A stretch of DNA of 23,382 nt from Streptosporangiaceae bacterium. GTDB taxonomy: Bacteria; Actinomycetota; Actinomycetes; Streptosporangiales; Streptosporangiaceae. The DNA lies in NCBI GenBank assembly GCA_025934635.1, contig JAICWX010000122.1, positions 1 through 23,382 of the forward strand, read 5' to 3'. Every line of letters begins with the position of its first letter. Position 1 is the first letter of the stretch. Both the position numbers and the translations under genes were made by a program. The notes below the pieces were generated by a model that saw only the letters and a list, made by a program, of their open reading frames with translations, was not told the DNA's origin and made no database searches. Positions 3,851 through 23,074 of the stretch are shown here, piece after piece.

Positions 3851-5362
3851 ATGACCAACATCTTGACCCGTGACTCCCGCGGCGGCCTGGGCTCCGGCTT
3901 TCCTGACGGCCGCGAGCGCCCGGTGCGTCCCGGTCTTGTCCTCGCCGTCGTCCTCATCGGGCAGTTCATGGCCGTGCTCGACGCCTCCATCGTCAACGTC
4001 GCCGCCCCCTCGATCCACGCTCACCTGGGCGCCTCGGGCGCCGGCCTGCAGCTCGTGGTGGCCGGCTACACCATCACCTACGCCGTGCTGCTGGTGACCG
4101 GCGCCCGGCTGGGCGACATCATCGGCCACCGCCGGGTGTTCCTGGCCGGGCTCGTCCTGTTCACGCTGGCCTCGCTCGGCTGCGGGCTGGCCGGCACCAC
4201 CGGCCTGCTGGTCGCCCTGCGCTTCGTTCAGGGGGCGGGCGCCGCGGTGATGATCCCGCAGGTGCTGAGCCTGATCCAGCGCACCCACGCGGGGCCGGCC
4301 CGGGCCCGCGCGATGAGCCGGTACTCCGCGGTGCTGGCCGGCGGCGCGGTGGCCGGCCAGCTGGCCGGCGGCCTGCTCATCAGCGCCAACCTGTTCGGCT
4401 CGGACTGGCGGCCGGTGTTCCTGGTCAACGTGCCCGTCGGCGTGATCCTGCTGGCGGTCGGCGCCCGGGCCCTGCCGCACGGCCAGGGCGAGCCCGGCCG
4501 GACCCTGGACCTGCCCGGCCTGGCCCTGCTGACCCCGGCCGTCCTCGCGCTCGTCCTCCCGCTGGTGCTCGGCCAGCCCGAGCACTGGCCGGCCTGGGGC
4601 TGGATCGCGATGGCCGCCAGCGTGCCGCTGGCCGTCGCCTTCGCCGCCGCCGAACGGCGGGCGGCCCGGGCCGGCGGTACCCCGCTGATCCCCGGCCGGG
4701 TGCTGCGGGTCCCCGGCGTGCCGGTGGCCATCGCCGCCCTGTTCACGGTCATGACCGTCTTCAGCGGGTTCTTCTTCACCCTCGCGCTGCACCTGCAGGA
4801 CGGCCTGGGCTACTCCCCGCTGCGGGCGGGCCTGACCTTCGCCCCCGCCGCGGTGACCTTCGCCCTGGTCAGCCTGAACTGGCGGCGCCTGCCGGCCCGG
4901 TCGCACGGCGCCGTGATCATCGGCGGCTTCGTCCTGTTCGCGGCCGCGATGGCCGGCCTGGCCTGGGCGGTACGCGACGGCGGCACCGGCGCCGTCGGCA
5001 TCTGCCTGCTCGGCGCGGTCAGCGGGGCCGGGATGGCAGCCGCGTTCAGCCCGTTGATGACCCGGGTCCTGCTCCGGGTCCCGGTCGAGCTAGCCGCCGA
5101 CGCCACCGGCGTCGTCGTCACCGTCAACCAGCTCGGCCTTCTCGTCGGCGTCGCCACCTTCGGCACCCTCTACCTCAACCTGGCCGGCCACCTGCCGGCC
5201 GCCGCCCCCGGCGCCCTCCCTGGCCCCGCCGCCCTAGCCGCCTTCCGCCACGCCTCCGCCCACGCCGAATCGCTCACCTTCCTAGCCCTAGCCGCCCTGG
5301 CCATCATCGGCGTCGCCCTCTCCGTCACCCACCTGATCGAACGCCGCGCGACCCCCGACTAA
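3851..5362 (+). CDS. DHA2 family MFS drug efflux transporter (EmrB/QacA type, 14 TM)
   Basis: A 503-residue proton-driven exporter of the cytoplasmic membrane. The family motif D1 is AVLDASIVNVAAPSI around residues 41-55, motif A is GARLGDIIGHRR (84-95), motif B is RFVQGAGAAVMIP, and the antiporter motif C lies near AVLAGGAVAGQLAGG. The hydrophobic profile fits 14 helices and the length is normal. The ATG at 3851 has only a weak GGCTGGA sequence upstream, so the start is less certain than the gene. It stands divergent from the MmyB-type regulator with repeated operator-like sequences between them. Substrates of DHA2 pumps (drugs, dyes, own secondary metabolites) cannot be predicted here. Confidence 0.93.
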   Translation: MTNILTRDSRGGLGSGFPDGRERPVRPGLVLAVVLIGQFMAVLDASIVNVAAPSIHAHLGASGAGLQLVVAGYTITYAVLLVTGARLGDIIGHRRVFLAGLVLFTLASLGCGLAGTTGLLVALRFVQGAGAAVMIPQVLSLIQRTHAGPARARAMSRYSAVLAGGAVAGQLAGGLLISANLFGSDWRPVFLVNVPVGVILLAVGARALPHGQGEPGRTLDLPGLALLTPAVLALVLPLVLGQPEHWPAWGWIAMAASVPLAVAFAAAERRAARAGGTPLIPGRVLRVPGVPVAIAALFTVMTVFSGFFFTLALHLQDGLGYSPLRAGLTFAPAAVTFALVSLNWRRLPARSHGAVIIGGFVLFAAAMAGLAWAVRDGGTGAVGICLLGAVSGAGMAAAFSPLMTRVLLRVPVELAADATGVVVTVNQLGLLVGVATFGTLYLNLAGHLPAAAPGALPGPAALAAFRHASAHAESLTFLALAALAIIGVALSVTHLIERRATPD

Positions 5363-6712: not shown

Positions 6713-8668
6713 GTGCTGCGGCTTCCGCCGGGCATCAGCAGGCGGCGAGTGCTTTCCCTGCTCGGCGCCGGCACCGGAGCGCTGCTGGCCGGACAGGCCC
6801 TGGCCGGCGACGGGATCCCCCCGGCCGCCAGCGCCCCCGCGGTGTTCCGCAGTGAGCCGCCCCAGCCCAGCGGCTACGCCCCCGACGGCACCGCGGGCCG
6901 CGCCGCCGCGTTCCCGCTGAACAAGGTGAGCCTCCTCGACGGCCCCTTCCGCCTGAACCAGGCCAGGAACACTGCCTACCTCCTGTTCCTCGATCCCGAG
7001 CGGATGCTCCGCTCCTTCCGCCTCAACTACGGCGAGCCCTCGACCGCCGAACCCCTTGGCGGCTGGGAGAAGCCGGACTCGCTGATCCGCGGTCACATGA
7101 CCGGTCACCTGCTGTCCGGCCTGGCGCTGACCTACGCCAACACCGGCGACGAAGCCGCCCGGACCCGCGGCCGCTACCTGGTCAGCCAGCTCGCCGCCCT
7201 CCAGGCCAAGGCAAAAGACGCCGGCTTCCATCCCGGTTACCTGTCCGGCTTCCCCGAGCACTACTTCGACCTGCTCGAGCAGGGCAGCGGCCCGATCTGG
7301 TCGCCGTACTACATGATCCACAAGTACCTGGCCGGGATGATCGACCAGTACCAGCTGGCCGGCGACCAGCAGGCCCTGGGCGTCGCGATCAAGCTGGCCG
7401 ACTGGGTGGAGTGGCGCACGAACCCGGCGAGGATCTCGTACGACCATATGCAGGCGGTGCTGAACACCGAGTTCGGCGGCCTGCCCGAGGCCCTGGCCAA
7501 CCTCTACACGATCACCGGCCGGGAGCGCTACCTGGCCACCGCGCAGCGCTTCTACCACGCCGCGGTGCTCGATCCCCTGGCCGCGGGCGAAGACAACCTG
7601 CCCGGCCTGCAGGCCAACGTGACCACCCCCAAGATCATCGCCTGCCTGCGGATGTGGGAGGAGACCGGCAGCGGCACGTACCGCGACATCGCCCGCAACT
7701 TCTGGGACATCGTTACCGGCCATCACGTGTACGTCATCGGCGGGGTGGGCAACTACGAGCACTTCCAGCAGCCCGACACCGTAGCCGCCCAGCTGTCCAA
7801 CTTCACCTGCGAGAACTGCGTCAGCTACAACATGCTCAAGCTGACCCGGCTGCTCCACTTCCACCAGCCGCAGCGGGTGGACATGCTCGACTACTACGAG
7901 CGCACGCTGCTCAACCAGATGCTGGGGGAGCAGGACCCCGCCTCGCCGCACGGCTTCAACTGCTACTACACCGGCCTGTCGACGGGCGCCTACAAGCGCC
8001 AGCCGCTCAACTACTTCCCGCAGGGCAACCCGGGTATCTACGCCACCGACTGGGACACCTTCACCTGCGACACCGCCAGCGGCGTAGAGACCCAGGCCAA
8101 GTTCGCCGACACCATCTACAGCCGGGACGAGGACGGCGTCTACGTGAACCTGTTCGTCCCGTCCGAGGTGAACCTGGGAGACATCACGCTCAGGCAGGAC
8201 ACCAGGTTCCCCGACGACCCGGTCGTCCGGCTGTCGGTGGCGTCCGGCGCCGCCACCCTGACGCTGCGGGTCCGGGTGGCGAAGTGGGTGGCCAAGCCGC
8301 CCGTGGTCCGGCTCAACGGCGCGCCGGTCACGGGCCTTGCCGGCGCCTGGCCGAGCGGCTGGATCACGCTGCGGCGGCACTGGCGGGCGGGCGACCGGCT
8401 CGAGATCACCCTGCCGATGCAGCTAGCCGTCGAGCCGACCCCCGACCATCCGGAGGTGCAGGCGCTGACCTACGGCCCGGTCGTCCTCAGCGCCGTCCAC
8501 CCCCGCAACCCCGGCATGCTCACCCCGCAGCTCGAAATGGACTCGATCAGCCAGACGTCCGCCCCCCAGCTGACCTTCAACGCCGTCGCCAACCACCAGC
8601 CCGTCCACCTGCTTCCCATCGCCCGCGCCGCCCACGAGTACTACACCACCTACTTCCAGATGACCTGA
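6713..8668 (+). CDS. Tat-exported GH127-like (DUF1680) beta-L-arabinofuranosidase family protein
   Basis: 651 residues from the GTG at 6713. A twin-arginine signal (ISRRRVLSLLGAGTGALLAG, residues 8-27, cleavage probably after ALA) sends it out of the cell folded. The rest is an (alpha/alpha)-barrel with the family blocks SLLDGPF, IWSPYYMIHKYLAGMIDQY and SNFTCENCVSYNMLKLTRLL. In the characterised enzyme HypBA1 a Glu and three Cys bind zinc or act in catalysis; E367, C369 and C452 appear to be the counterparts here, while the usual Cys pair at the nucleophile is a single Cys (FTCDTASG), so activity and substrate may differ. GH127 members cut beta-L-arabinofuranosides, for example from plant glycoproteins. 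The start codon lacks a ribosome binding site and the frame stays open far upstream, so the true N-terminus may be longer. Confidence 0.85.
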   Translation: MLRLPPGISRRRVLSLLGAGTGALLAGQALAGDGIPPAASAPAVFRSEPPQPSGYAPDGTAGRAAAFPLNKVSLLDGPFRLNQARNTAYLLFLDPERMLRSFRLNYGEPSTAEPLGGWEKPDSLIRGHMTGHLLSGLALTYANTGDEAARTRGRYLVSQLAALQAKAKDAGFHPGYLSGFPEHYFDLLEQGSGPIWSPYYMIHKYLAGMIDQYQLAGDQQALGVAIKLADWVEWRTNPARISYDHMQAVLNTEFGGLPEALANLYTITGRERYLATAQRFYHAAVLDPLAAGEDNLPGLQANVTTPKIIACLRMWEETGSGTYRDIARNFWDIVTGHHVYVIGGVGNYEHFQQPDTVAAQLSNFTCENCVSYNMLKLTRLLHFHQPQRVDMLDYYERTLLNQMLGEQDPASPHGFNCYYTGLSTGAYKRQPLNYFPQGNPGIYATDWDTFTCDTASGVETQAKFADTIYSRDEDGVYVNLFVPSEVNLGDITLRQDTRFPDDPVVRLSVASGAATLTLRVRVAKWVAKPPVVRLNGAPVTGLAGAWPSGWITLRRHWRAGDRLEITLPMQLAVEPTPDHPEVQALTYGPVVLSAVHPRNPGMLTPQLEMDSISQTSAPQLTFNAVANHQPVHLLPIARAAHEYYTTYFQMT

Positions 8669-9193: not shown

Positions 9194-9340
9194 CCCGAAC
9201 GAGCGAAGTTGACTGCCCCGGTACCCCCGCGAGCCAAAGGGCGCCGGCGCTGTCTGGACTGAGGAGCGAGGAGCTTGCGACGAGTGACGAGGGAAGGCAG
9301 CGCCTCAAGGGCGCCCGGAGGCGAGCGGGAAAACACTGAC

Positions 9341-10369
9341 GTGACCCGGCTGACGCCTTCCCCGCCGGTCACCGTGACCGACGCCGCCGAGGCGATCCAG
9401 GCCTGCTACGGCCTGGCCGGGAACCTGACCCGGCTCCCCGGCGAAGCCGACGACAACTTCCTCCTGGACAACGGAGGAGCGCGGTACGTCGTCAAGTTCG
9501 CCCACCTGCGCGCCGATCCCGCCGTCGTCGGCGTCCAGGTGAGGGTCCTGCGGCACATCGAGGCGGCCGCGCCCGCGCTGCCGGTGCCGCGGGTCCTGAT
9601 TCCGCTCGAACCGGCCGCTGACGGGGAGCCGTGGACAGTAGTACCCGACGGCCCGCTGCGCGGCCGGGTGGTGCACGCCCTCGGCTACCTCGACGGCCGC
9701 CTGCTCCGCTCGGTCCCCGCCGGCCCGCCGCTGCGCCGCGCCATGGGCGCCACCCTGGCCGAGCTCGGCCGGGCCCTGCGCGGCTTCGACGACCCGCTGG
9801 TGCACCGGCCGCTGCTATGGGACCTCGCCCAGCTACCCCAGCTCCGCCCGCTGGCCGCCGAACGTCCCCCCGGTCCCCGCACCGACCTGCTCATCACCCA
9901 GCTGACCCGGCTCACGACCGAGGTCTCGCCCCGGCTGGCCGCCCAGCGCACCCAGCTGCTGCACAACGACTTCAGCCCGGACAACACGCTGATCTCGGCC
10001 GACGGCGCCGCGGTCAGCGGGATCATCGACTTCGGCGACGTCACCGTCACCGCCCTGGTCAACGACGTCGCCATCGCGGTCGCCAACCTGATCGCCGACG
10101 ACGACCCGCTCGGTCCCGGGCTCGACCTGATCGCCGGGTATCACGCCGTCACGCCGCTCACCGCGGCCGAGCTCGGCCTGCTGCCCGACCTGATCCTGGG
10201 GCGCGTCGTGGCCCGGATCATCATCAGCGAATGGCGGGCCGGACGGTTCCCGGAGAACCGCGCCTACGTCCTGCGCAACACCCCCCGGGCGTGGGAACAG
10301 CTGGACCGGCTGCTTAGCATCGGCGCAGAGGAGACCGCCGCCCGCATCCAGGAGGCCACCCGTGCGTGA
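9341..10369 (+). CDS. APH-fold small-molecule kinase (phosphotransferase family)
   Basis: 342 residues from the GTG at 9341. The nucleotide-binding lysine is K52 in YVVKFAH, the catalytic loop is LLHNDFSPDN (H208, D210, N215) and the metal-binding Asp is D230 in GIIDFGD, so all kinase residues are present. An in-frame TTG at 9275 with GAGGAG upstream is a possible earlier start, but the 22 added residues look like leader. The last 8 bases overlap the PLP enzyme that follows, giving tight coupling. Kinases of this fold paired with class III aminotransferase-fold phospho-lyases are known from vertebrate hydroxylysine kinase/AGPHD1 and AGXT2L2. By analogy this one probably phosphorylates an amino alcohol (ethanolamine, hydroxylysine or similar) rather than an aminoglycoside. 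The substrate is inference. Confidence 0.85.
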   Translation: MTRLTPSPPVTVTDAAEAIQACYGLAGNLTRLPGEADDNFLLDNGGARYVVKFAHLRADPAVVGVQVRVLRHIEAAAPALPVPRVLIPLEPAADGEPWTVVPDGPLRGRVVHALGYLDGRLLRSVPAGPPLRRAMGATLAELGRALRGFDDPLVHRPLLWDLAQLPQLRPLAAERPPGPRTDLLITQLTRLTTEVSPRLAAQRTQLLHNDFSPDNTLISADGAAVSGIIDFGDVTVTALVNDVAIAVANLIADDDPLGPGLDLIAGYHAVTPLTAAELGLLPDLILGRVVARIIISEWRAGRFPENRAYVLRNTPRAWEQLDRLLSIGAEETAARIQEATRA

Positions 10370-11672
10370 CACCGCGACCATGGTCAACGGCTTCGACCCC
10401 TCATCCGTCGACGCCCTCGACCCCGAGCTGCGCACGATCGTCGAGCGCCGGGCCCGGCTGCTCGGCCCGGCCTACAAGCTCTTCTACCGCAACCCGGTGC
10501 GCATCGTCCGGGGCGAGGGCGTGCACCTGTACGACGCGGACGGCCAGGTCTACCTGGACGCCTACAACAACGTGCCGTCGGTCGGGCACTGCCACCCGCG
10601 GGTGGTGGAGGCGATCGCCCGGCAGGCGGCCACCCTGAACACCCACACCCGGTACGCCAGCGAGCTCATCCTGGACTACGCCGAGCGGCTGCTCGGCACC
10701 TACCCGGCCGGGATCGGGAACGTCATGTTCACCTGCACCGGCAGCGAGGCAGTCGACCTCGCGCTGCGCATCGCGCGCTTCTCCACCGGCGGCGACGGGG
10801 TCGTGATCACGGCCAACGCCTACCACGGGGTGACCGCGGCCGCGGCCGAGATATCGCCCAGCCTCGGCCCGGCCGTCCCGCTCGGCCGCGCGGTCTGGAC
10901 GGTGGCGGCGCCCGGCCCCGGCGACACGCACGAGTCGCTGGCCGGCCGGGTGCGGACGGCCATCGCCGACATGAACCGGCACGGCGTCCGGCTGGCCGCG
11001 TTCATCGCCGACACGCTGTTCTCCTCCGACGGGATCCGGCCGGAGCCGGCCGGGTTCCTGCGGCCGGCGGCCGACGCGGTGCGCGCGGCGGGCGGGGTGT
11101 TCATCGCCGACGAGGTCCAGCCCGGGTTCGGCCGCACCGGCGAGGCCATGTGGGGCTTCCAGCGGCACGGCGTCGAGCCCGACCTGGCCGTCATGGGCAA
11201 GCCCATGGGCAACGGCATGCCGATCGCCGGGGTGGCCGCCCGCCCGGAGATCCTCCAGGAGTTCGGCCACAAGATCAGGTACTTCAACACGTTCGGCGGG
11301 AACTCGGTGTGCGTCGCCGCCGCGGCCGCGGTCCTCGACGTCATCGAGACCGAAGGCCTGCGCGAGAACGCCCGGACCGTGGGCGGCTACCTGCGCGACG
11401 TCCTGGCCGGGATCGCCAGGGACGAGCCCCGGATCGGCGCCGTCCGCGCGTGCGGCCTCTACGCCGCCGTCGACTTCGTCCACCCCGGGACCGGCCAGCC
11501 TGACGGCGACGCCGCCCTGCGCGTCGTCAACGGCCTGCGCGAGCGCCGCGTCCTGATCAGTGCCACCGGCCCGGACGGCAGCAGCCTCAAGATCCGCCCC
11601 CCGCTCCCCTTCACCCACCCCAACGTCGACCAGCTCGCCGAAGCCCTCACCGCCACCCTCCCCACCCTCTGA
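10362..11672 (+). CDS. PLP-dependent class III aminotransferase-fold enzyme, probable O-phosphoamine phospho-lyase
   Basis: 436 residues. Fold-type I landmarks: the phosphate-binding block FTCTGSEAVDLALR (about 123-136), the cofactor Asp D250 in FIADEVQPGFGRTG, the Schiff-base Lys K280 in VMGKPMGNGMP, and FNTFGGNSVC (308-317). The N-terminal segment FYRNPVRIVRGEGVHLYDAD and AYNNVPSVGHCHP closely follow the ETNPPL/AGXT2L2 group, whose members eliminate phosphate and ammonia from phosphoethanolamine or phosphohydroxylysine; a bacterial member from Arthrobacter (A1RDF1) has been characterised. GGAGG six bases before the GTG at 10362, inside the kinase gene, supports this start. A true aminotransferase role remains possible. 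The kinase partner makes a phosphorylate-then-eliminate pathway the more economical reading. Confidence 0.88.
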   Translation: MRDTATMVNGFDPSSVDALDPELRTIVERRARLLGPAYKLFYRNPVRIVRGEGVHLYDADGQVYLDAYNNVPSVGHCHPRVVEAIARQAATLNTHTRYASELILDYAERLLGTYPAGIGNVMFTCTGSEAVDLALRIARFSTGGDGVVITANAYHGVTAAAAEISPSLGPAVPLGRAVWTVAAPGPGDTHESLAGRVRTAIADMNRHGVRLAAFIADTLFSSDGIRPEPAGFLRPAADAVRAAGGVFIADEVQPGFGRTGEAMWGFQRHGVEPDLAVMGKPMGNGMPIAGVAARPEILQEFGHKIRYFNTFGGNSVCVAAAAAVLDVIETEGLRENARTVGGYLRDVLAGIARDEPRIGAVRACGLYAAVDFVHPGTGQPDGDAALRVVNGLRERRVLISATGPDGSSLKIRPPLPFTHPNVDQLAEALTATLPTL

Positions 11673-18762: not shown

Positions 18763-19744
18763 CCCGCGTCGGTATCGCGACGTGGCGGAGCTACTCGCGG
18801 GCGCGACCGGGCGGGCGGAGCTGGCCGGGGCTCCCGGCAAATCCGGGGCCACCCTGGAACGGGTGGCGATCGACGGCCAGGATTACGTGCTCAAGCACCT
18901 CGACCTGGCTAGCGACTGGACCATGCGGGTCTCGGGCTGCCTGCGCGGCGCGCCGCTGGTGCTCTGGGAACGCGGCATCCTGGCCCGCCTGCCCGGCTGC
19001 CTCAACCAGCCGATCGTCGGCGCAGCCCCGGAACCGGGCGGCTGCGCGCTGCTGATGCGCGACGTCACCAAATGGCTGGCGCCCGCCACCGACGAGCCCA
19101 TCCCGCCGGATCAGCACGCGCGCTTCCTGCGGCACATGGCCGCCCTGCACGCGGAGTTCTGGGACTGCGGAAGCGAGTTCGACGTCGTCCCCGCCATGCA
19201 CCGCTACCTGGAGCTGTCGCCGTGGATGGCCGAAGCGGAGGCCGCCGCGGGGTCGCCGCACCTGGTCCCGAAGCTGGTCGCGCAGGGCTGGCCGCTGCTG
19301 GCCGAAGTCGCCCCGGCCGCCGCCGCCGTGGTCACCCCGCTAGCGCACGACCCGGGTCCGCTGGTGGCGGCGCTGGCCGCGACGCCGCAGGCGTTCGTGC
19401 ACAGCAACTGGAAGCTCGATAACCTCGGCACCGACGACGAGGACCGCACGGTGCTGCTCGACTGGGAGCAGCCCGGCCGCGGCGCGCCGCTCAGCGACCT
19501 GGCCTGGTACCTGGCCATCAACTGCCGCCGGCTGCCGCAGTCCAAGGAAGACTCGATCGCCACCTACCGGGAAGCGCTCGAGGCTCGCGGCGTCGACACC
19601 GCCCCCTGGTGGGACCGCCAGCTGGCGCTGTGCCTGCTCGGCGCCCTGGTCCAGTTCGGCTGGGAAAAGGCCCTAGGCGGCTACGACGAGGAACTCGCAT
19701 GGTGGGAAACCAAAGCCCTAGCCGCCGCCCCCCTGCTGACCTGA
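18755..19744 (+). CDS. APH-fold phosphotransferase-like protein with altered catalytic loop
   Basis: 329 residues. Lys47 in YVLKHLD matches the nucleotide-binding lysine, and LLDWEQPG gives the metal-binding Asp (D236). The catalytic loop, normally His-Gly-Asp-x4-Asn, reads HSNWKLDN (216-223), so the catalytic Asp is Asn218 and the Gly is Ser217; the codons are AGC AAC. This is compatible with a pseudokinase or a ligand-binding protein, or with an unusual active site. The segment after it (SDLAWYLAINCRRLP) is normal for the subfamily. The GTG at 18755 has GGAGG about six bases upstream and overlaps the SnoaL-like gene by 8 bases; the 3' end overlaps the methyltransferase by 46 bases. Confidence 0.83.
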   Translation: MPDPRRYRDVAELLAGATGRAELAGAPGKSGATLERVAIDGQDYVLKHLDLASDWTMRVSGCLRGAPLVLWERGILARLPGCLNQPIVGAAPEPGGCALLMRDVTKWLAPATDEPIPPDQHARFLRHMAALHAEFWDCGSEFDVVPAMHRYLELSPWMAEAEAAAGSPHLVPKLVAQGWPLLAEVAPAAAAVVTPLAHDPGPLVAALAATPQAFVHSNWKLDNLGTDDEDRTVLLDWEQPGRGAPLSDLAWYLAINCRRLPQSKEDSIATYREALEARGVDTAPWWDRQLALCLLGALVQFGWEKALGGYDEELAWWETKALAAAPLLT

Positions 19745-20547
19745 TCCACGCCTACGACGCGGCGGCGGACGGCTGGGACGCAGGCCCCGGGCCGATGTAC
19801 GAGCCGCTGGCCCGAGCGCTGGTCGCGGCCGCCCCGGTATCATTGGCCGGATCCGTGGTGCTCGACCTCGGCGCGGGCACTGGCGTGGCCGGACGAGCGG
19901 CGCTGGCCGCAGGGGCCCACCACATGGTCGGCGCCGACCTGTCCGAGGCCATGCTGCGCCGCCATGCCCTCAAGGACGGTGCCTCGAAGGGCGGCGCCGT
20001 AAGCTGCCCGGTCGCCGCCGACGCGGTCGCGCTGCCGTTCCGCGACGATTGCTTCGACCTGGTGCTGGCCGCGTTCTGCCTCAACCACCTGAGCCGCCTC
20101 GCGGACGGACTGGCCGAGCTGCGGCGAGTCGGCGCGGCCATCGCCGCGAGCACGTTCGCACCGGGCTGGACGCACCCGGCTAAGGAGGCGGTCGACGAAG
20201 CCGCCCGCTCGTTCGGCTACCGCCCGCCGTCCTGGTACACGGCCCTCGCCCCGGGCGAGCGGGCCGCCGACCCGGACCTGCTCGCCGCGCACGCGTCCGC
20301 CGCCGGGTTCACCCGCGTCCAGGTCGCCGCCGTGGCCGTCCCGACCCCGATCGCGACCCCCGCCCAGCTGACCGCCTGGCGTCTGGGCATGGCCCACTAC
20401 GCCCCGTTCCTGCACACGCTGGACGCGCCGTCCCAGGTCGCAGTGCGGCACGCGGCCGAACAGGCCGTAACCGCGTCCGGAGCCACCGGCCCGCTAACCG
20501 TCGAGATGACAGTGCTCACTGCCCGGCGCCCTGCGTACCACAATTGA
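19699..20547 (+). CDS. Class I SAM-dependent methyltransferase
   Basis: 282 residues from the ATG at 19699, preceded by GAGGAA five bases upstream and lying inside the end of the kinase-like gene. Motif I for SAM binding is VVLDLGAGTGVAGRAAL (about 53-69), the acidic residue after strand 2 is D80 in VGADLSEAML, and motif IV is FDLVLAAFCLNHL (119-131). The C-terminal half is variable, with PAQLTAWRLGMAHYAP, and the acceptor cannot be deduced. Overlap with the two genes upstream suggests that the three products act on the same compound or together, possibly modifying a small metabolite. Confidence 0.88.
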   Translation: MVGNQSPSRRPPADLIHAYDAAADGWDAGPGPMYEPLARALVAAAPVSLAGSVVLDLGAGTGVAGRAALAAGAHHMVGADLSEAMLRRHALKDGASKGGAVSCPVAADAVALPFRDDCFDLVLAAFCLNHLSRLADGLAELRRVGAAIAASTFAPGWTHPAKEAVDEAARSFGYRPPSWYTALAPGERAADPDLLAAHASAAGFTRVQVAAVAVPTPIATPAQLTAWRLGMAHYAPFLHTLDAPSQVAVRHAAEQAVTASGATGPLTVEMTVLTARRPAYHN

Positions 20548-21449: not shown

Positions 21450-22307
21450 CTAGGTTGTTGCAGAATGTTGCAGATGTTGGGTGATCGCGTTGCTGATCAA
21501 TTCCCGGGCGCGGGAGCCGTAGACGGCGGACTGGCGGAGCTGATCGAATACCGTGGCGTACAGGGTGATCTCGTCCGGGCGGGTGATCTCCAGTCTGGCT
21601 GAGATCGTCTCGATGGTGACCCGCGCGTCGTCCCAGATCCAGAAGGGCACCTGAGCGACTGTGTATCGCTCCGCCATCGCCGGGATGATCCCGACGCTGA
21701 CGTTGGGCAGCTGCATTACCTCCTGCAAGTGCTCCAGTTGCGCTTTCATCACCTGCGGCGTGCCGAGGCGGGTCCGGAGCACCTGTTCGGCCAGTACGAC
21801 GATGAACCGGCGGCGGCCATCGTGCAGTATCTTCTGCCGGGCGAGCCTGGCCGCCGTGGCGGCCTCGGCGTCATTGGGCAGCCCGAGGAACCGTACCCAG
21901 TAGTTCATGATCTCCATCGAGTACTCGGCGGTGTGGAACAGGCCAGGCAGTGCTGTGTGCTCATAGATCCGGAACAGCTGGGTCCGCTCGTACCGCGATG
22001 CCGAGGACTCCTGGAGCTGGCGCATCCCCGCCCTGGCCTGGTGACGCCATTCGCGGTACATCGATTCGACCGTGCGGGCCATCGCGATCAGCTCGGGTAC
22101 CTGGCCGCTGGCGCCGCAGGCCGTGCACCACGCGCGGATCTCCGCGTCAGTGACGCTCTGCCGCCCGTTCTCGACGCGGCTGATCTTCGTGTGATGCAGC
22201 CCGGCAAGCCGGGCGAGTGCCCGACCGGTGAGGCTCGCTTCCTGGCGCAGCTCGCGGAGGCGAGCGCCGAACGCCTCTTTCGCCTGCTGAACGTCTTCGC
22301 CGGGCAC
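21450..22307 (-). CDS. XRE family regulator with DUF5753 (Scr1-type antitoxin-like)
   Basis: 285 residues. The HTH lies at about 14-60 (FGARLRELRQEASLTGRALA, then RLAGLHHTKISRVENGRQ). The DUF5753 domain follows from about residue 100 (RIYEHTALPGLFHTAEYSM, LARQKILHDGRRRFIVVLAE, VSVGIIPAM). The protein starts with GTG at 22307; a TACAAC box at 22319-22314 lies six bases before it without a ribosome binding site, so a second, leaderless transcript is plausible besides read-through from the DUF6879 gene. Regulators of this type are usually paired with a small DUF397 protein and have been described as toxin-antitoxin-like (Scr1/Scr2 in Streptomyces coelicolor). Here no DUF397 gene is present, and DUF6879 takes the neighbouring place. 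Confidence 0.9.
   Translation of the reverse strand: MPGEDVQQAKEAFGARLRELRQEASLTGRALARLAGLHHTKISRVENGRQSVTDAEIRAWCTACGASGQVPELIAMARTVESMYREWRHQARAGMRQLQESSASRYERTQLFRIYEHTALPGLFHTAEYSMEIMNYWVRFLGLPNDAEAATAARLARQKILHDGRRRFIVVLAEQVLRTRLGTPQVMKAQLEHLQEVMQLPNVSVGIIPAMAERYTVAQVPFWIWDDARVTIETISARLEITRPDEITLYATVFDQLRQSAVYGSRARELISNAITQHLQHSATT
21456..21472. promoter_or_regulatory. 17-bp direct-repeat motif, copy A
   Basis: TGTTGCAGAATGTTGCA contains two GTTGCA hexamers exactly 10 bp apart, one helical turn, with a third GTTG just after. It overlaps the last codons of the XRE-DUF5753 gene and lies upstream of the 97-residue gene. It differs at one base from copy B at 23058-23074. On the minus strand, TTGATC about 17 bp before ACATCT could form a weak promoter immediately upstream. 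Confidence 0.55.
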
Positions 22308-22319
22308 AGCGCCGTTGTA

Positions 22320-22841
22320 TCAGCTCAGGGCGGGTATGTACGCGTGGTGCGGGATGGACAGCGCCCACGCAGCCTCGAATGACGCCCGGCAGCGAGCAAT
22401 CAGAGCGGGATCGGTCCTGGCGGGCCGGTCAACGACCAGGCCGTTTCCGGTGAACACCATGAACACCAGCAACTCGTCATCGAACAGCCAGAAGTCGTTG
22501 CCGGGAAACATCAGCTCCGATGCACGGTCTCGGGGCACCCACCGGATGTCCTCTCCCGCATCAGCCATCGGCGCGGTAACGCTATGCGCCCAGCGCTGGT
22601 AGTCGCTCAGCGGTTCGGACACGACCCTGGCACGCCGGAAAACCTTCCCGGCCGCGGTGGCATCACGGATGAGCGTGCACCACGGCCGGAGCCAGCCGAG
22701 GTCATCAGGTTCACCTGCGGCCCACTTCGCCAGATGCGGGATCTCGGCGTCGGTGCCGTAGGAATCCCGCATCTCCAGATGCAGAGCCTCGCGTTTGACC
22801 TGCGGGAACAGGGCGGCGAACTCCGTGTACGGGAGCCCCAC
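22320..22841 (-). CDS. DUF6879 family protein
   Basis: 173 residues. Conserved-looking blocks are FFPQV-like FAALFPQVKREALHLEMRDS at the N-terminus, ARVVSEPLSDYQRWAHSVT (about 71-89), WVPRDRASELMFPGNDFWLF and the C-terminal FEAAWALSIPHHAYIP. The family is widespread in actinobacteria next to XRE-DUF5753 regulators, and its activity is not established. The GTG at 22841 shares its first base with the TAG of the 66-residue gene, and GGGAGG lies four bases upstream, so translation is coupled. The stop is 12 bp before the regulator start. By position it takes the role of the DUF397 effector in Scr1-type pairs; that is inference. Confidence 0.85.
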   Translation of the reverse strand: MGLPYTEFAALFPQVKREALHLEMRDSYGTDAEIPHLAKWAAGEPDDLGWLRPWCTLIRDATAAGKVFRRARVVSEPLSDYQRWAHSVTAPMADAGEDIRWVPRDRASELMFPGNDFWLFDDELLVFMVFTGNGLVVDRPARTDPALIARCRASFEAAWALSIPHHAYIPALS

Positions 22842-23041
22842 TAACCCTCCCGGAAGAAGGGAACGAGCCGGTCGGGGATTTCCACGACCGTCTCCCCTTC
22901 AGGGATGTTCATCTCGGTGAGCGCGGCGGGATCGGTCACGGCCCACCCCTGGACAAGCCAGCTGTCCCGGTCGGTCTTGTACAGGGTCGGGGACTGGTCC
23001 GGGACACTATCGGGATCCTTGGCGACGAACCTGATGCGCAT
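22841..23041 (-). CDS. Small conserved protein preceding DUF6879
   Basis: 66 residues, beginning MRIRFVAKDPDSVPDQSPTL and containing YKTDRDSWLVQGWAVTD and GETVVEIPDRLVPFF. The pattern (beta strands with YKTDR, VQGW and VVEIP) is typical of short proteins found beside DUF6879 and XRE genes in actinobacteria; no biochemical role is known. GAGGAGGAG precedes the ATG at 23041 by three to five bases. It is the first gene of the module, and its promoter region carries motif copy B, so it would be made first when the operon is derepressed. It could be a partner of the DUF6879 protein. Confidence 0.8.
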   Translation of the reverse strand: MRIRFVAKDPDSVPDQSPTLYKTDRDSWLVQGWAVTDPAALTEMNIPEGETVVEIPDRLVPFFREG

Positions 23042-23057
23042 GATCTCCTCCTCACAG

Positions 23058-23074
23058 TGTTGCAGAACGTTGCA
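23058..23074. promoter_or_regulatory. 17-bp direct-repeat motif, copy B (probable operator)
   Basis: TGTTGCAGAACGTTGCA holds two GTTGCA hexamers 10 bp apart. It lies 17 bp before the 66-residue gene and starts about 9 bp after the proposed -10 box at 23083-23088, so it would cover the transcription start. It differs from copy A by one base. The XRE-DUF5753 regulator encoded in the same operon is the obvious candidate to bind it. Confidence 0.6.

Follow-up and report, generated by a model that had tools for sequence, protein, structure and literature searches.

Why does a near-identical 17-bp motif stand at both ends of a small regulatory module, and which protein could read it there? The question is raised by a locus in a 23,382-nucleotide stretch of DNA from a Streptosporangiaceae bacterium (contig JAICWX010000122.1), and this whole stretch is called the window here. 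In the answer that we consider probable, which is drawn from sequence comparison, the module would act as a local switch of the WhiJ kind: its XRE-DUF5753 regulator would repress its own operon at one copy of the motif (O1) and activate a neighbouring cargo gene at the other (O2), gated by p66 and DUF6879. A first-pass annotation of the window had already suggested an autoregulated module with a two-promoter regulon, and comparison of site conservation, geometry, locality and joint change with related loci speaks for such a local regulon. The features concerned are the following, with the more distant genes of the window at the end.

23111-23083, minus strand: probable operon promoter, with -35 TTGACG at 23111-23106, a 17-bp spacer and -10 GATGCT at 23088-23083, the latter assigned from spacing only
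23058-23074, minus strand: site O1 (copy B), GCAAC-N5-GCAAC, 17 nt ahead of the p66 ATG and spanning the probable start of transcription
23041-22841, minus strand: p66, the first, small, conserved protein of the module, 66 residues
22841-22320, minus strand: DUF6879 (PF21806, E 1.9e-60), a single phospholipase-D-like domain without the HKD motif
22307-21450, minus strand: XRE-DUF5753 regulator (HTH_31 E 2.4e-16; DUF5753 E 2.5e-31), the probable binder of O1 and O2
21456-21472, minus strand: site O2 (copy A), again a GCAAC direct repeat, within the 3' end of the XRE gene; the next gene is probably activated from here
21428-21423, minus strand: TTCACT, candidate -10 after O2 at the usual 28 nt, degenerate
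21417-21412, minus strand: TACCGC, candidate -10 after O2, 11 bp beyond TTCACT
21360-21067, minus strand: p97, a 97-aa gene, candidate cargo controlled from O2
19609-20547: methyltransferase
9275-11672: APH-type phosphotransferase, then class III aminotransferase
6713-8668: GH127 arabinofuranosidase
3851-5362: MFS transporter
1725-2486: class-C26 peptidase/amidotransferase

The two 17-mers, TGTTGCAGAATGTTGCA at 21456-21472 and TGTTGCAGAACGTTGCA at 23058-23074, are the sole matches in the window at up to three mismatches, where chance gives a mean of 0.03 and two matches were found in none of 100 shuffles. The near-identical pair at the module ends that the annotation had described, with its one difference, is thus real. 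Read in the direction of the genes, O1 is TGCAACGTTCTGCAACA and O2 is TGCAACATTCTGCAACA, identical at 16 of 17 positions. The units had been described as GTTGCA, 10 bp apart; the spacing stands, and the core is more precisely a direct repeat in gene direction, GCAAC-N5-GCAAC, with a period of 10 bp. Copy A does lie upstream of p97, as had been noted, and it is also part of the XRE gene, whose final codons contain it; the distance from the start of its first GCAAC to the final base of the stop codon is 21 nt. At this distance from the end of the XRE gene's stop codon, 21-22 nt, exact repeats are also present in L004, L009, L012, and L038, and variant repeats occupy the same position in L003, L016, and L070.

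The gene order around these sites was examined in two sets of loci. Among 80 DUF6879 genome loci (the best 80 of 212), p66 is located directly 5' of DUF6879 in 73 and an XRE gene 3' of it in 77, and both neighbours flank it in 73, in agreement with the earlier statement that a p66-DUF6879 pair stands in the place of DUF397. In the second set, the 30 best DUF6879 places across 394 Actinomycetes genomes, a p66 profile match is found in 28 loci (exceptions L131 and L149) and a same-strand XRE gene downstream in 27, being absent from L122 and L125 and on the opposite strand in L141. Because the p66 and XRE neighbours recur in both sets, p66-DUF6879-XRE is a real three-gene unit. The annotated 1-base stop/start overlap is present as well, base 22841 being common to p66 and DUF6879. 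The p66 protein has 286 homologues at E <= 1e-3 and a structure model with a pLDDT of 89.9; p66 and p97 match no Pfam family at E <= 1, and p66 gives no match to the DUF397 profile (hhalign probability 0.4%). According to Pfam, the regulator carries HTH_31 at residues 12-69 and DUF5753 at residues 112-272, which is the N-terminal HTH plus DUF5753 arrangement of WhiJ-type proteins.

The conservation of O1 was scored in 73 regions upstream of p66, comprising 72 loci (from the best 80 of 212) and the window, with matches counted anywhere within 120 nt of p66; seven loci without p66 and L018, where no start codon was found, were left out. GCAAC-N5-GCAAC is present exactly in 45 of the 73 regions, compared to 0.01% of base shuffles, and with at most one mismatch in 59 (14 beyond the exact ones), compared to 0.6%; conservation upstream of homologous modules had been set in advance as a test of the motif. 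In 37 of the 45 regions with an exact pair, the p66 start is no more than 24 nt away; in the other eight the pair is a farther one, 72-80 nt upstream. A letter-free period test gave the same picture: a perfect 6-mer repeat at period 10 occurs in 51% of the 73 regions and in 1% of shuffles, whereas periods 8, 9, 11, and 12 give 0-3%. Moreover, TTGAC is found 28-44 nt before the repeat in 34 of 37 exact O1 sites, against a background of 0.9%, and in the window it starts 38 nt before the first GCAAC. Given a usual promoter spacer, the repeat would lie over the transcription start, as the annotation had placed copy B, and hence in a repressor position; O1 is probably the autorepression site of the p66-DUF6879-XRE operon. 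As a separate observation, an extra GCAAC pair is present 91-95 nt upstream of p66, and upstream of the operon promoter, in the Kribbella-type loci L039, L042, L046, L049, L051, L055, and L057, in two of which (L042 and L055) it accompanies the usual exact O1; this pair is possibly a third operator.

A second exact repeat pair, O2, was found in 50 of 81 sequences (the 80 loci, again the best 80 of 212, and the window), located on the same strand at or after the XRE gene end in 30 and upstream on the opposite strand in 20, never both. These 50 sites were picked by repeat and place alone. Nevertheless fixed promoter geometry follows them. The distance from the repeat to a TAnnnT box, usually TAnCGT, is exactly 28 nt at 45 of the 50 sites and 27-29 nt at 49, the sole exception being the window, and TTGA at the -35 distance occurs in only 5 of 65. 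At 26 of the 50 sites the -10 is followed, at a distance of 5-8 nt, by an ATG or GTG, which opens at least 40 codons in 21 of these 26, so that the genes linked to O2 often have leaderless starts. When up to three mismatches were allowed, the scan yielded 122 forward matches across whole loci, 67 of them in O2 places and covering 65 of the 81 sequences; a reversed-sequence control gave 6 in such places, all at three mismatches. The scan was empty in 16 of the 81 sequences, some of them broken or cut-off loci. In terms of promoter geometry, the layouts of O1 and O2 look opposite, repressor-like at the former and activator-like at the latter, which had not been foreseen in the annotation. Departure from the consensus is larger for O1 in 20 of 60 loci, larger for O2 in 5, and equal in 35; a stronger departure at O1 is expected if the activating site fills before the self-repressing one.

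From these layouts we infer a mechanism in which one XRE-DUF5753 protein would bind the same period-10 direct repeat at both sites. At O1, where the repeat is just downstream of the operon -10, binding would block transcription and lead to autorepression. At O2, where the repeat is at about -55 to -41 with a strong -10 and no usual -35, binding would recruit RNA polymerase and could thereby switch on the neighbouring cargo gene, which is often leaderless and which would be p97 in the window. The p66 and DUF6879 proteins, made together with the regulator, would most likely set its activity by contact, and for DUF6879 this contact could rest on its resemblance to the DUF5753 domain of the regulator itself, a role as proposed for BldB/DUF397 proteins with WhiJ.

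The window itself raises a doubt about its own O2. Since this is the one site of 50 without the usual -10, the control of p97 from O2 is uncertain, and p97 is a candidate for the cargo. A sizeable minority chance must be given to the view that O2 has decayed in the window, copy A being a leftover and p97 having its own promoter. The p97 ATG lies 96 nt past the repeat with no leaderless start, as would suit such decay; against it, the repeat core is intact, at 16 of 17 positions identical to O1, TACCGC is available 11 bp further on, and p97 belongs to a conserved family (103 homologues, none with a Pfam family). In other loci, the cargo was picked by a rough codon-position rule, which gave 44 genes at 60 O2 sites and no pick at 16, and some picks are surely wrong. 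The genes so obtained are small and variable. Their largest similarity group has four members, short proteins that end in a zinc-ribbon-like part (weak match to DZR) and probably have a membrane helix. In two Streptomyces loci, L075 and L113, the cargo matches DUF397 just above the cut-off of 24, at 24.5 and 25.2 bits.

A further issue is whether the sites are read by the regulator of the module or by some other factor, in which case O2 would serve an alternative sigma factor as its promoter (with CnTAnCGTC as a conserved extended -10) and a protein encoded elsewhere would bind the repeat. The O2 -10 is indeed conserved beyond plain TAnnnT, and the T at position 19, at about -36, is 98% conserved, both in keeping with a special sigma factor. 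However, O1 has the same repeat downstream of its -10, a place in which a sigma factor would have no need of it. In addition, the units of the two sites change together by module. All four units are GCAAG in the Streptomyces loci L062, L068, L073, and L076 and GCACA in the Streptomyces loci L064 and L077, and three of four agree in L069 and L079, also Streptomyces; because these species are related, the eight loci represent perhaps two or three events. One locus, L033, counts against strict matching, its O1 units both being GCAAT and its O2 units both GCAAC; moreover, L064, L068, and L077 have an O2 repeat that no TAnCGT follows at the usual distance. The recognition helix of the regulator is mostly H-F/Y-T-R/K-V-S in GCAAC modules, S-E-S-K-S-S in 4 of 5 GCAAG modules, and H-H-A/S-K-T-S for GCACA, a correspondence that is confounded with phylogeny. 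By eye, a TATTC-N5-TATTC repeat, also of period 10, seemingly replaces GCAAC in the modules of L129, L132, L133, and L135.

The genomic distribution of the sites also bears on an outside reader. An O2 pattern of 16 fixed bases has six matches in six of the 394 genomes and none when reversed. One is the query locus L038, and four of the other five are just after an XRE gene of the module kind, three of these four having DUF6879 in the examined stretch; in L088 the XRE frame is interrupted and DUF6879 is absent from that stretch, and in L086 neither XRE nor DUF6879 is found there. In 41 genomes with modules, the pattern has 31 matches in 25 genomes (reversed pattern, 0), and all 30 that were examined adjoin a module, one of them being the module's O1 and one (L096) lying at an XRE gene only. 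The annotation had proposed a genome search for the motif; in ten related genomes TGCAACNNTCTGCAACA occurs in only two, once each and both times as O1. The bare GCAACN5GCAAC is common, with 143 matches in the ten genomes vs 91 for the reversed pattern, and two same-strand GCAAC pairs about 1.6 kb apart are present in seven of the ten by hand count. Matches beside modules, together with the paired copies, make the regulon look local, and we regard reading by another factor as unlikely. Judged from genome counts, the GCAAC version is one branch, with the O2 pattern in 6 of 394 genomes vs DUF6879 above its Pfam cut-off in 105 of 394. On another contig than L003, genome G002 contains two further GCAAC sites 1.6 kb apart (L082; C8:31652-33264), which suggests a second module of the same kind.

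The paired copies flank the module at a distance of about 1.6 kb, in the window as in the seven genomes, and might also be taken for the recombination ends of a mobile cassette instead of operators. The two copies of one locus have different spacers, 20 of 50 second sites are divergent, and each site has a fixed promoter geometry particular to it, all of which render such an origin extremely improbable.

The regulatory reading is further contrasted with that of a type II toxin-antitoxin system, which had been mentioned as an option in the annotation and in which DUF6879 or p66 would be the toxin, the XRE protein would serve as antitoxin and autorepressor, and O2 would merely add a neighbour. 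The autorepressor-like O1 is compatible with it, though such a placement is not specific to toxin-antitoxin systems, and so are the presence of DUF6879 relatives on 93 of 72,556 plasmid records and the fact that some genomes have more than one copy, with as many as 8 matches in G094. XRE-DUF397 pairs were also once proposed as such systems, in the accessible part of PMC2701414. In disagreement with it are the three genes, the second, activator-like site, and the accessible accounts of related XRE-DUF397 pairs as regulators of antibiotic production (PMC6262351, PMC10364602). Furthermore, DUF6879 has a phospholipase-D fold and differs from the phospholipase D family (Nuc, PLD3, Zucchini, FAM83B) in that HxKx4D is found in none of 59 members; hydrolysis by the known phospholipase D route is thus not expected, and the toxin-antitoxin reading appears quite improbable. 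Comparison of profiles, on which the likeness rests, indicates that DUF6879 resembles the regulator's own DUF5753 domain. It differs from the archaeal regulators TrmB and TrmBL2 in being a separate protein without a DNA-binding domain.

For a switch controlled by the regulator itself, the nearest known system, by analogy, is WhiJ9-BldB9-IosA of Streptomyces venezuelae. In the accessible part of the report (PMC10294661), WhiJ9 binds three direct repeats with the consensus CGXXCTCAAC, 113 bp upstream of the iosA start, and is needed for activation of this leaderless neighbour; inactive WhiJ9 raises its own transcription twofold, which was read as autorepression, and the outcome is under the control of a small, non-DNA-binding partner protein. 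The module, known here from its sequence, shares with this system, as far as described there, an XRE regulator of the WhiJ kind, direct repeats, and a leaderless neighbour. It differs in its partners, p66 and DUF6879 vs a DUF397 protein, in having O2 at about -48 with fixed spacing vs 113 bp upstream of iosA, and in its split operator, O1 being a separate second copy before the operon. Scr1/Scr2 and other XRE-DUF397 pairs resemble the module in placing an XRE regulator beside a small partner gene and differ in gene order, partners, and operator, within the accessible text (PMC6262351, PMC10364602), where a keyword search for an operator motif in the Scr1/Scr2 papers returned nothing. The period-10 repeat is not prominent upstream of 14 DUF397-linked XRE genes, 11 more having been dropped because no start could be placed. 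In the open literature searched, whose coverage leaves most subscription papers outside, DUF6879 is unnamed and the O1/O2 layout is not described in the text accessible.

In a broader and more tentative view, to which we give about the weight of one possibility among several, the module could be a portable switch with a promoter at its edge: the border promoter at O2, downstream or divergent, dependent on the activator and often leaderless, would command whichever gene adjoins it. DUF6879 would then be a free-standing, catalytically dead, phospholipase-D-like relative of the DUF5753 sensor domain that gates the regulator together with p66, perhaps on a small ligand. The layout of the module provides DUF6879 with a concrete role that can be put to the test, and it predicts the DNA letters that each regulator should read. 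From sequence, the targets of numerous modules of this type can likewise be read. In addition, p66-DUF6879-XRE offers a simpler case for how partners of the BldB/DUF397 type control WhiJ-type regulators.

Some minor observations concern the module proteins and their carriers. The p66 protein has double length (123-128 aa, with two similar halves) in L016, L021, L025, L059, L060, and L061. Among the named relatives closest to p66 and p97, several come from Streptosporangiaceae or Trebonia MAGs, and one Streptosporangiaceae MAG has homologues of p66 and p97, under the tags VFQ68_29690 and VFQ68_29705, with equal lengths of contig given for the two. In 11 of 15 listed plasmid rows (H2-H8, H10, H12-H14), the DUF6879 match is about 14 kb or less from one end of the record, which would fit a position close to the termini of linear Streptomyces plasmids. 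One phage record contains a DUF6879 relative, gene 30 of Streptomyces phage Kromp (MH744420.1, 25436-25921), with 42% identity.
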